Positions 18,880 through 51,564 of a stretch of DNA of 64,000 nt are shown in pieces. The translations under genes and the position numbers were made by a program. Below the pieces are notes generated by a model. It did not search any database and was not told where the DNA came from. It saw only the letters and a list, made by a program, of their open reading frames with translations. Source of the DNA: Syntrophorhabdaceae bacterium (GTDB lineage Bacteria > Desulfobacterota > Syntrophorhabdia > Syntrophorhabdales > Syntrophorhabdaceae). The stretch lies in NCBI GenBank assembly GCA_036504895.1, contig DASXUJ010000121.1, positions 1-64,000 of the forward strand. Reading direction: 5' to 3'. Every line of letters starts with the position of its first letter. Position 1 is the first letter of the stretch.

Positions 18880-18952
18880 CTTGAAAAGGCCAAACCACCG
18901 GTGACGGTGGGACGGAAAGCCAACGGGTCTCAAAGAAGATAGCCGAGCCGCC
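18880..18952 (+). promoter_or_regulatory. GEMM-I cyclic di-GMP riboswitch aptamer
   Basis: Core starts AAGGCCAAACC, then P2 CCACCG-GTGA-CGGTGG with a GNRA tetraloop (18895-18910), the conserved GGGACGGAAAGCC joining region, and P3 with GGGTCT and the downstream GATAGCCGAGCC. This matches the GEMM-I consensus as I recall it, and the C-G pair replacing the Vc2 G21-C46 pair (18890 with 18915) is a compensatory change. The base equivalent to G20 is G (18889), as in c-di-GMP-type rather than cGAMP-type members, so c-di-GMP is the expected ligand. Confidence 0.9.
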
Positions 18953-18991
18953 AGGGATGATTGGGAGGTCACAATTGGCGGCTGTTGTTTT
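18946..18991 (+). terminator. Intrinsic terminator acting as riboswitch expression platform
   Basis: AGCCGCCA (18946-18953) pairs with TGGCGGCT (18976-18983), followed by GTTGTTTT. The 5' arm is the 3' end of the aptamer, so ligand-stabilised aptamer and terminator compete for the same bases. That arrangement predicts transcription is turned on by ligand, unless P1 does not use these bases. Confidence 0.75.
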
Positions 18992-19775: not shown

Positions 19776-22274
19776 ATGGCTGATCGACGCTCGAAACCTA
19801 AAAGTAAAACCCTCCGCACCCATTCCAAGAATGGCCGAAGATTGCGAAATAGAGCTGTGGGTCAGCCACCGGCACATAATGATCTTCGAACTCTAATTTA
19901 CTCCATGTCCCTTGCAGTTCAGATTTGTGAACTTGAGTGCGATGAGGAGGGGCAGCCTCTCGATGTGGTCATACTCGAGACCAATCCTGCGTACGAAATA
20001 CATTCCGGTATATCTCCGGATCAAATAATCGGCCGGCGAATAAAAGAGTTACTCCCCATTGTTGAGCATGCGTGGCTTGACCGATACGCGGAACTCGTCC
20101 GCACGAAGGCGCCCGTTACCTTCGAGGAATATAATGCCTCTCTTGGGCGGTGGTTCGAAGTACACGCAAGTTCAATGGGCGGCAACCGGTTTGCGGCCAT
20201 ATTCAGAGATATCACCGAGCATAAAAAAATGAAAGCCATTATTCAGGAGGAGAAGGACCGGCTGTCTGCCCTGATCGGCAGCATTCAGGATGAAGTCTGG
20301 TTCGCGGATATTGAAAAAAAGTTTACTTTAGCCAATCCATCGGCCCTACGTGAATTTGGCCTTGACGGAAGCAACAAGATAGATATAGCAAAGTTTGCCG
20401 AGAGCCTGGAGGTCTATCGCCCCGACGGCACCCCACGCCCTGTGAATGAAGCTCCGCCTCTTCGCGCACTTCAGGGTGAAGTAGTGAGGAACCAGGAGGA
20501 GTTGGTCCGAACGCCCGGAAGCGGGGAGCTCCGCCGTCGCGAGGTGAGCTCCTTTCCAATGAGAGATTCCAGGGACGCCATTATCGGATCGGTATCGGTG
20601 GTGCGCGATATAACCGACCGCAAGCACGCAGAGGATGTACTGCGTGCCAACGAGCAAAAGCTACGGATGTTTTACGAGTCCGGAATAATGGGGATGTTTT
20701 CGTGGGACATGGACGGAAGAATTATCGATGTAAATGACCGTTACCTTGAGATAATCGGCTACACCAGAGAAGATTTTATTGCAGAACCGTTTAAAGGGGC
20801 GGAAATGACCCCGCCGGAATATCGGCCGCTGGACCAGCGGGCCTTGGAGGAGCTCAAGTCGATCGGGATCGGTACCCCTTATGAGAAGGAATTCATCCGC
20901 AAGGACGGGAGCAGAGTTTCGGTTCTGATAGGGGCTGCGGCCGTAAATCTGGATCGGACCCAAGGAGTGGCGTTCGTTCTGGACATCACCACACGCAAAC
21001 AGGCCGAGGAGGCCCTTCAAAAAGCACACGATTCCCTCGAGCTTCGTGTACAGGAACGGACTGCAGAGTTGAGTCATGCCTATGAGACACTTCAGAATGA
21101 GATTATGGAACACAAGAAGGCGGAAGAACATCTCCGGCAGGCTCAGAAGATGGAGGCGATCGGCACATTTGCCGGGGGCATCGCCCATGATTTTAATAAC
21201 ATTCTCGCCGCAATCCTGGGTTTTACGGAGATGGCGGCAGAAGATTCTTCCGACCGCCCGGAGGTACAAAGAAGCCTTCAGCATGTTCTCAGATCTACAC
21301 TGAGAGCGAGAGAGCTCGTAAAGCAGATCCTCTCTTTCAGTCGAAAAGCCGAACACGAAAGGAGCCATATGTCAGTCTCTCCCGTGGTCAAAGAGACGCT
21401 GAGGCTTCTGAGGGCATTTATTCCGACCAGCATCAAGATCATTCCGAACATCAGGGTCACCTCCGACACGGTGCTTGCCTCCCCGGTGGAGGTGCAGCAG
21501 ATACTTATGAACCTCGGCGCCAACGCGGCCCTCGCCATGGAGAAGAGCGGAGATATACTGGAGATTGGCCTGTCCGAGACTGTATTCCGGCCGGACTGCC
21601 CGGACATGCCGCAGGACCTGGTCCCGGGAGAGTATCTCGAATTGAGCGTGAGAGACGAGGGGAGTGGCATGAGCCCCAATGTGAGGGAAAGGGTTTTCGA
21701 GCCCTTCTTCACCACGAGGGAGGCGGGCAAAGGCACAGGCATGGGCCTGTCCGTAGTATACGGGATTGTGAAGGGACTCAATGGCGCGATCACCATTGAA
21801 AGCGAGCTTGGGGTCGGTTCGACATTCCGGGTATTCCTCCCTAAGATTAAGGCCGAAATCAAGGATGAAGGCGTGGTCGCGGACGGAATCCTAAGGGGAA
21901 AAGAAAGAATCCTCTTTGTCGACGATGAAGAGATGCTCGTGGAGTGGGGTAAGGCATTGCTCGAAAGACTCGGCTACACGGTAGCCGCCGCGACTGACAG
22001 CAGGGAGGCCCTTAAGACCTTTGCCTCCATTCCATTCCAAATCGATCTCGTCATCACCGATCACACTATGCCGGGAATGACCGGTATAGAGCTATCCAAA
22101 ATGCTCCTGGAGGTAAGGCCGGACATCCCCATTATCCTCTGCACCGGCCACAATAACGGGAGTTCCCCGGATATCGCAAGGGAGACGGGTATCAAAGAAT
22201 ACCTCCTGAAGCCCCTTTCGAGACAGGAACTGGCGCAGGCGGTCCGGCGCGTTCTGGATGGAAACAAAGGCTGA
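19776..22274 (+). CDS. Hybrid sensor histidine kinase: three PAS domains, kinase core, receiver
   Basis: 832 residues, no membrane helix, so a soluble cytoplasmic sensor. PAS domains at about 40-155, 160-285 and 290-410 (the last ends VAFVLDITTRKQAEEAL), a coiled coil (about 415-455), dimerisation/phospho-acceptor region with GGIAHDFNNILAAILGF, ATPase domain with NLGANAALAM, DEGSGM and GTGMGLSVVYGIVKG, then a receiver domain (about 710-825) with DDEEM, phospho-Asp in DLVITDHTMPGMTG and Lys in YLLKPLSRQEL. AGGAGGT lies four bases before the ATG. Its cognate regulator is not adjacent. Signal unknown; proximity to c-di-GMP elements is suggestive only. Confidence 0.93.
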   Translation: MADRRSKPKSKTLRTHSKNGRRLRNRAVGQPPAHNDLRTLIYSMSLAVQICELECDEEGQPLDVVILETNPAYEIHSGISPDQIIGRRIKELLPIVEHAWLDRYAELVRTKAPVTFEEYNASLGRWFEVHASSMGGNRFAAIFRDITEHKKMKAIIQEEKDRLSALIGSIQDEVWFADIEKKFTLANPSALREFGLDGSNKIDIAKFAESLEVYRPDGTPRPVNEAPPLRALQGEVVRNQEELVRTPGSGELRRREVSSFPMRDSRDAIIGSVSVVRDITDRKHAEDVLRANEQKLRMFYESGIMGMFSWDMDGRIIDVNDRYLEIIGYTREDFIAEPFKGAEMTPPEYRPLDQRALEELKSIGIGTPYEKEFIRKDGSRVSVLIGAAAVNLDRTQGVAFVLDITTRKQAEEALQKAHDSLELRVQERTAELSHAYETLQNEIMEHKKAEEHLRQAQKMEAIGTFAGGIAHDFNNILAAILGFTEMAAEDSSDRPEVQRSLQHVLRSTLRARELVKQILSFSRKAEHERSHMSVSPVVKETLRLLRAFIPTSIKIIPNIRVTSDTVLASPVEVQQILMNLGANAALAMEKSGDILEIGLSETVFRPDCPDMPQDLVPGEYLELSVRDEGSGMSPNVRERVFEPFFTTREAGKGTGMGLSVVYGIVKGLNGAITIESELGVGSTFRVFLPKIKAEIKDEGVVADGILRGKERILFVDDEEMLVEWGKALLERLGYTVAAATDSREALKTFASIPFQIDLVITDHTMPGMTGIELSKMLLEVRPDIPIILCTGHNNGSSPDIARETGIKEYLLKPLSRQELAQAVRRVLDGNKG

Positions 22275-22310: not shown

Positions 22311-22541
22311 CTAATTCGTCCGCACCCAGCCTTTCTTCGCGAGACAACGACCTGTCTCCTCCCCGAGGGTCGCCGGTCAGGTGCCGGGAATACCCTTTGC
22401 GGCAAGCATCTTCCTCGCCGTGGCCTCGCATGTCTGTCTGTCCTTCTCGAACGCGTCCCCACCCTTGGCGGGGTGCCTGTACGTGGCTGCGCAGCCTCCA
22501 GATAAAACCAGAAGAAGGATTAAGAGTATTGTCGGTTTCAT
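22311..22541 (-). CDS. Small lipoprotein with in-frame TGA, candidate selenoprotein
   Basis: Starts ATG at 22541, 13 bp after the stop of the upstream gene. Reads MKPTILLILLLVLSGGC, a signal peptide with lipobox LSGGC (lipidated Cys17), then YRHPAKGGDAFEKDRQTC and onward to KGIPGT at residue 54. Codon 55 is TGA (22379-22377). The frame continues open for 21 codons to a TAG, encoding GEETGRCLAKKGWVRTN at the end, which resembles the Cys-Leu-x-x-Lys-Gly-Trp ending I recall for small lipoproteins of this type. A hairpin with GGUC in its loop follows the TGA at a SECIS-like distance. Either Sec is inserted at residue 55 (76-residue product), or the gene has a nonsense mutation and makes 54 residues. 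Undecided. Confidence 0.55.
22341..22358 (-). promoter_or_regulatory. SECIS-like hairpin after the in-frame TGA
   Basis: In the mRNA, GAGACA pairs with UGUCUC around the loop GGUCGU. The loop begins 24 nt after the UGA. Bacterial SECIS elements place an apical loop with an early G about 16-37 nt downstream of UGA, and the E. coli fdhF element presents GGUC in its loop. The match is by eye and only one 6-bp stem is certain. Confidence 0.45.
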
Positions 22542-22940: not shown

Positions 22941-23420
22941 TCATTTCTTCTTTGCCTTCGGTTGACCGGGAGCCTTGAACAGATTGTCGGCACTCTTCTT
23001 CTGCTCTTCAGCCAGACTCGCGTAGAGGGCTTCGAAGACGGAGATGAACTTCTTGAGACCCGCCGCCTGTGCGTCGGTGACTTCACTGTACGATTTGAGG
23101 TCTTCCACCGCATTCATGGTCTTTAACTTCTCGACCCTCGCTTTCATGAGGGTGTCCATGGTTTTCGCGTTCTCCCGCATCACCTGGGAGACCTTGCTCC
23201 ACAGCCCTTCCTGCGCTTCCGTGATTTTCAGCTTGGAATGGAGGTCTTTGATCGCTGCCTCCGCCCGGTCGACTTCGGAGAGCTTCGCTGCCTCCCCGGC
23301 GGGGTTCTTGGCGGCCGAGATCGAAGGGCTTGCGATCAGAAGTGCGGCGGCGATACAAAACACCGCTGCCGCATAACAAATTATAGGGGAATGGGTAACG
23401 GGAAAAGCAATACGTTTCAT
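22941..23420 (-). CDS. Spy/CpxP-like (LTXXQ-type) periplasmic protein
   Basis: 159 residues. Signal peptide (MKRIAFPVTHSP, hydrophobic part to about residue 34), then an all-helical body with the Spy-like stretch DLHSKLKITEAQEGLWSKV and a second helix ending SLAEEQKKSADNLF. Spy-type proteins are periplasmic chaperones of envelope stress. Start at 23420, where AAGGAG lies nine bases upstream; a longer frame to 23675 adds 85 residues with no domain. Lys-rich C-terminus (PKAKKK). It precedes the His-rich gene by 65 bp on the same strand; shared transcription is likely. Confidence 0.82.
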   Translation of the reverse strand: MKRIAFPVTHSPIICYAAAVFCIAAALLIASPSISAAKNPAGEAAKLSEVDRAEAAIKDLHSKLKITEAQEGLWSKVSQVMRENAKTMDTLMKARVEKLKTMNAVEDLKSYSEVTDAQAAGLKKFISVFEALYASLAEEQKKSADNLFKAPGQPKAKKK

Positions 23421-51225: not shown

Positions 51226-51249
51226 TAGATGAAAATGTTCAGACTGATC

Positions 51250-51564
51250 CTAGCAGCTGCAGGACCCGCAAGACTTGTTTTCTTCTGTAAGTTTTGAGCT
51301 GATCTTGAATCCACCACCCTCGGGGGTGCTGACGAAATCGACCGTGACCGGATTTACTTCTTCAAAGAGCTGTTTATTGATGATGAATGTATTTCCGTCT
51401 TCCTTGAATACTTCGTCGTCTTCTTTAGGCCCGTCCAGGGCCATTCCCAATGAGGGGCCCGATCACCCACCTCCAGCCATCAGAATCCTGATGGCGCTGT
51501 CAAGGTTCCTTTCCTTCAGGAAAGCCTTGATCATTTCACTCGCCTTCTCGGTTACCTGAAACAT
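51250..51564 (-). CDS. HesB/IscA-like selenoprotein with UGA at codon 34
   Basis: Reads MFQVTEKASEMIKAFLKERN from an ATG at 51564 (AAGGAG seven bases upstream), then ILMAGGG, a TGA (51465-51463), and SGPSLGMALDGPKEDDEVFK without a break to a TAG at 51250, 104 residues in total. The pattern GG-U-SGPSLGMALD is that of the known HesB-like selenoprotein family of anaerobes (Cys in other homologues), so TGA as selenocysteine is well founded. Ends KSCGSCSC, a Cys cluster as in the family. IscA-type proteins handle Fe-S clusters. A hairpin GGCCC-TGGAC-GGGCC with its loop 25 nt after the TGA may be the SECIS. Ordinary gene calling would truncate it to 51450 or miss it. Confidence 0.88.

Follow-up and report, generated by a model that had tools for sequence, protein, structure and literature searches.

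The question raised by this locus is whether a TGA codon that interrupts a small lipoprotein gene is read as selenocysteine (Sec) or merely ends the protein. The gene lies in a 64,000-nucleotide stretch of DNA from a Syntrophorhabdaceae bacterium (the window), and a sequence-only reading had proposed it as a candidate new selenoprotein. The locus very likely holds a working selenoprotein gene from a family not yet catalogued, here called the selenolipoprotein, for which there are no protein, RNA or selenium data. Incorporation of Sec at codon 55 is likewise very likely, as a prediction from sequence comparison. This interpretation rests on the conserved UGA, Sec/Cys exchange, constraint on a downstream hairpin, coding constraint past the UGA and the presence of Sec machinery. 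Coordinates are collected in Table 1.

Table 1. Features at and around the selenolipoprotein locus, in positions of the window
Feature	Position	Strand	Basis
Selenolipoprotein gene, 76 codons plus TAG	22311..22541	minus	translation; 12 other UGA homologues; profile match
In-frame TGA, predicted selenocysteine, codon 55	22377..22379	minus	column is TGA in 13 genes, TGC in syntenic orthologue L009
bSECIS-like hairpin GAGACAG-GUCG-UUGUCUC, 7 bp, GUCG loop	22341..22358	minus	comparative pairing, synonymous shuffle, absence in Cys forms
Perfect GC-rich palindromic hairpin, 14 bp	22281..22311		fold -25.9 kcal/mol, z = -5.2
His/Tyr/Pro-rich exported protein, 106 aa	22555..22875	minus	ORF list; junction sequence
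HesB-like selenoprotein gene, MAGGGUSGPSLG, known family	51247..51564	minus	translation with TGA read as U

Translated over its full length, the gene reads MKPTILLILLLVLSGGCAATYRHPAKGGDAFEKDRQTCEATARKMLAAKGIPGT, the TGA, PATLGEETGRCLAKKGWVRTN and a closing TAG (22313-22311). The sequence-only reading, which left the strand unstated, had described a lipobox frame with TGA at codon 55, continuing for 21 more codons to a TAG that abuts a perfect hairpin, and all of this held on translation and folding. The complete product matches the family profile over residues 1 to 76 with one TGA included (2.3e-32), and carries the lipobox Cys17, Sec55 and the conserved Cys38 and Cys66. A mechanical ORF call at this gene returned a 54-aa ORF, and standard gene calling would cut the selenolipoprotein short at the UGA in the same way.

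A six-frame search, of 60 relatives at first and then of 46 genomes of the order, found UGA homologues, and the family counts 13 distinct UGA genes (the window gene, L002-L008, L011, L012, L018, L021 and L049/L060), each with a single in-frame TGA, always in the same alignment column. The homologues show 41 to 61% identity, and one of them, L021 (G000:C48), is a paralogue within the source genome. All 13 come from one order, Syntrophorhabdus included. A scan of GTDB species genomes (84,980 species) returned these same UGA genes from Syntrophorhabdus sp. PtaB.Bin027, from a MAG labelled Syntrophus SW.3.55 and from several unclassified deltaproteobacterial MAGs, and a wider search of 395 genomes of the phylum turned up no UGA form beyond the order. 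The recurrence of the same TGA in independently assembled genomes makes a sequencing error untenable, the opposite of the different codon in re-sequenced DNA that would have refuted the proposal. Most UGA genes are near synonymous saturation (pS about 0.7 to 0.9), and pN/pS 3' of the UGA is below 1 in all listed gene pairs but one, where it equals 1.0. KGW and a Cys are conserved downstream of the UGA, within the family signature DF[EK]xDRxxCE...TU...RCLxxKGW.

The Sec column is occupied by exactly aligned TGC (Cys) in L009/L096, the orthologue from genus g5 in genome G017, which is flanked by the same neighbors as its UGA counterparts (tRNA-dihydrouridine synthase, a 317-aa lipoprotein, LepA and a HemW-like protein). 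In this syntenic orthologue the SECIS-type hairpin is lost along with the UGA, a swap that amounts to a clean natural experiment. The alignment of homologues, proposed beforehand as a check, thus shows UGA in 12 other genes and Cys in a syntenic orthologue, and supports the candidate selenoprotein. Exact alignment of Cys at the Sec column is confined to this one close orthologue. In L010, which belongs to the genus of UGA gene L018, a TGT lies one alignment column off the Sec position. Among more distant Cys forms the loop ahead of helix 2 is shorter, and the Nitrospirota relative L056 has no Cys at the Sec position. The family tree contains at least three Sec/Cys label changes, with many weak branches owing to the short sequences. 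Within the order, paralogous lipoproteins that contain Cys (the L013-L028 and L030/L035 groups) are clearly homologous to the selenolipoprotein, sharing the lipobox, D(R/K)xxC and the C(L/M)xxKGW frame, but they have Cys for Sec, no SECIS hairpin, and a loop that is six residues shorter or richer in Cys (CATCEDVKRC).

The source genome holds a third paralogue, L030 (4192-4428 in G000:C17). Its Sec site is rich in Cys (TCEKDSAVCATCEDVKRC), and it lacks a SECIS hairpin.

The hairpin of the window starts 18 nt after the UGA. Its GAGACA/UGUCUC stem and the six-base loop GGUCGU, starting 24 nt after the UGA, are as the earlier reading had described them; counting the inner G.U pair, the loop is GUCG, 25 nt from the UGA. 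Across the 12 aligned UGA genes the family hairpin comprises this stem, an inner A-U or G.U pair, and a GUCG, GGCG or GGCU loop. Stems are 5 to 8 bp, the loop-to-UGA spacing is 25 or 22 nt in 10 of the 12, and pairing in L002 and L018 requires a register shift. The family hairpin fits the published bSECIS model in loop size, G position, stem length and 22- to 25-nt spacing (PMC13188914). The minimum free energy quoted for bSECIS models is -7.5 kcal/mol or lower (PMC13188914); the isolated hairpin reaches -7.3 kcal/mol in the window, just short of this value, and -2.8 to -9.4 kcal/mol across the family.

Taken from one sequence, the SECIS-like hairpin claimed earlier is weak, and it rises far above chance only by interspecies comparison. 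The free fold of 61 nt of the window (-18.2 kcal/mol) has the hairpin in its centroid and is not unusual (z = +1.0), and the best hairpin anywhere in the bSECIS range of each gene gives mostly weak p values (0.01 to 0.5). Because free-fold energy is uninformative for a single sequence, we relied on comparative and synonymous-shuffle tests. In contrast to the per-gene search, the position-specific test across genes is decisive. Hairpin cells are paired at 92.9% over the 12 UGA genes, against at most 58% with the partner strand slid, and all seven pairs are present in 9 of the 12, against 0.09 expected under synonymous-codon shuffling (chance of 0 to 1.3% per gene). The nominal p value of this shuffle, 3e-18, is inflated by the relatedness of the genes. 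The hairpin encodes (E/G)-T-(G/R)-(R/L)-C-L in most UGA genes, and the stem Leu codon is CTC in all 12, versus 2 of 18 Cys forms (p = 1e-6). Changes in the hairpin among the 12 UGA genes are one-sided only, with no compensatory two-sided changes; in the absence of covariation, support for the structure comes from the codon constraint and from its loss in Cys forms. No hairpin of the SECIS type was found in the Cys genes L009 and L010. A covariance model scores UGA forms at 65 to 72 bits and Cys forms at 17 bits or less, and on the source genome it gives the two UGA paralogues 65 to 68 bits and everything else at most 18; L060 was not used in training, though it closely resembles L006, which was. 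Conservation of the hairpin nucleotides exceeds what the protein sequence calls for. In a free full-length fold the window hairpin competes with an alternative pairing that uses bases right after the UGA, bases that a ribosome with the UGA in its A site would be expected to cover.

That the organism makes selenocysteine had been inferred from a known selenoprotein family member at 51250-51564. This gene was confirmed as HesB-like, and the inference is supported by the presence of selA, selB, selC and selD in the genome. The source genome encodes selA (E = 1.8e-171), selB, a tRNA-Sec with anticodon TCA (UCA in the Sec-tRNA) and two selD genes, L109 (G000:C108) and L110 (G000:C96), one with UGA in VRGAGUASKIGPGDL and the other without an in-frame stop. 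TGA also ends the neighboring gene at 19776-22274 and terminates four UGA family members. UGA therefore serves as an ordinary stop too; it is not reassigned, and the genetic code is unchanged.

The TAG of the selenolipoprotein gene abuts the 14-bp palindromic hairpin, which lies between two convergent genes and is likely a bidirectional terminator lacking an obvious T run; a terminator scan requiring a T run did not call it. On the other side, the stop of the gene for the 106-aa protein is 13 nt ahead of the selenolipoprotein start. The two may be operon partners, an arrangement seen at this locus only, and the 106-aa protein has no Pfam match. An LTXXQ (CpxP/Spy-like) protein gene is located on the minus strand at about 22941-23363, ahead of the gene for the 106-aa protein, and these two genes could form an envelope-stress cluster. 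Elsewhere in the window, a c-di-GMP-I-GGC riboswitch aptamer (18880-18956, plus strand, 63.4 bits, above the gathering score) sits in the gap ahead of 19776-22274, a histidine kinase/receiver gene, and an Rfam scan of the window returned nothing else.

Cys17 is nearly invariant across the family, and LPAM_1 is matched in 6 of 13 members. The window protein, with its slightly non-canonical lipobox LSGGC, is not matched. AlphaFold2 predicts two helices (residues 28-49 and 56-69) and no beta sheet, with a mean pLDDT of 81 and about 90 over most of the mature region. Sequence and fold searches of the PDB gave nothing significant, and the predicted structure is not a thioredoxin fold. Cys38 and Cys66 are both invariant in the family and would face each other in an antiparallel hairpin turning at residues 50 to 55, suggesting a structural disulfide. 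Two members have an extra Cys nearby, as CU in L002 and CxxU in L012. No common operon context with the window gene or its paralogue was found, the order Dus, 317-aa lipoprotein, LepA being conserved in one genus, and so gene context says little on function. Inferred from the model and from chemistry only, the selenolipoprotein is likely an envelope-anchored redox or thiol/metal-reactive protein on the periplasmic side.

In L018 (around 1480-1660 in G037:C112) no recognizable signal peptide is present in any upstream frame; this gene may be decaying, or its start may be misplaced.

Several other explanations must be weighed. The UGA could be a nonsense mutation, or the gene a decaying pseudogene, in which case the lipoprotein would stop at codon 54 and the rest would be untranslated. 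The small size and unknown function of the gene, the 54-aa ORF returned by mechanical calling and the lost signal peptide of L018 speak for this view, which the sequence-only reading had set out as the competing one. It fails on the identical UGA in 13 genes, most of them near synonymous saturation, on the coding constraint and KGW/Cys conservation past the UGA, and on the lack of a hairpin in the orthologue with a Cys codon; we reject it as all but excluded. Decoding of the UGA as something other than Sec, through a code in which UGA is Trp or Gly, natural readthrough or a regulated pair of truncated and long isoforms, would likewise produce constraint after the UGA if readthrough were conserved, and plain readthrough might in principle be promoted by a hairpin. 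Other genes of the same genomes, however, terminate at UGA, the one substitute residue seen in the close syntenic orthologue is Cys, and the four Sec genes occur together with a suitably spaced SECIS-type G-U loop, leaving such decoding very improbable.

The remaining alternative accepts a genuine selenoprotein and holds that its family has already been described under another name. Several catalogued selenoproteins are indeed small hypothetical proteins (DG, DF, DW and GOS_B). However, Pfam and the 18950 NCBIfam models, the kind that supplies their NF accessions, gave no convincing match to the selenolipoprotein family, and NF049953, NF041197 and NF049942, the NCBIfam models of deep-Sep families, are not among its matches. 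No comparable lipoprotein appears in Table 1 of PMC13188914, a 2026 catalogue that counts 119 families and subfamilies of prokaryotic selenoproteins, and no Sec lipoprotein was found in the open-access literature searched (supplementary tables were outside the search). The earlier statement that no selenoprotein of this small-lipoprotein type is described held within these sources. A previously described family is thus unlikely, if still possible and not fully excluded, and the selenolipoprotein is very likely a new, uncatalogued selenoprotein family.

The selenolipoprotein resembles HesB-like, SelD and other catalogued selenoproteins (PMC13188914) in its UGA with an immediate downstream bSECIS, its Cys homologues and its dependence on selA/B/C/D, but has no sequence relation to them. 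Most characterized selenoproteins have a thioredoxin-like fold, whereas this one is small, exported and predicted to be a two-helix hairpin. The deep-Sep families DG, DW and DF (PMC12013277) and the Sargasso/GOS families are likewise short, uncharacterized, computational finds with Cys homologues, and mostly from Sec-rich bacteria, as is the selenolipoprotein; unlike these small families, it has the Sec motif TU(P/T) followed by a Cys 10 to 11 residues on.

In the mechanism that we propose, the mRNA of the locus would encode a small lipoprotein precursor in a strictly anaerobic syntroph, and at codon 55 SelB, brought in by the GAGACA-R-GUCG-U-UGUCUC hairpin, would deliver Sec-tRNA(UCA) so that the UGA is read as selenocysteine. 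The chain would then be exported and lipidated on Cys17. The mature protein of about 60 residues is inferred to fold into a hairpin of two antiparallel helices, which a Cys38-Cys66 disulfide probably links. Sec55 would occupy the N terminus of helix 2, a position that may stabilize a reactive selenolate lying open on the surface of the membrane. With its hairpin so short and strongly constrained, the gene allows a direct reporter test of Sec insertion, and a single Sec in so small a protein eases study of its chemistry. The family adds one small, exported, lipid-anchored member to the roughly 119 prokaryotic selenoprotein families and subfamilies. A bolder reading, which could as readily prove wrong as right, is that it represents an order-restricted family of membrane-anchored mini-proteins that lack a thioredoxin fold and carry one reactive selenolate at the N terminus of a helix. 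If so, it would be a new architecture for extracytoplasmic selenium chemistry in strict anaerobes, for instance thiol redox in the envelope or the capture of metals or metalloids.
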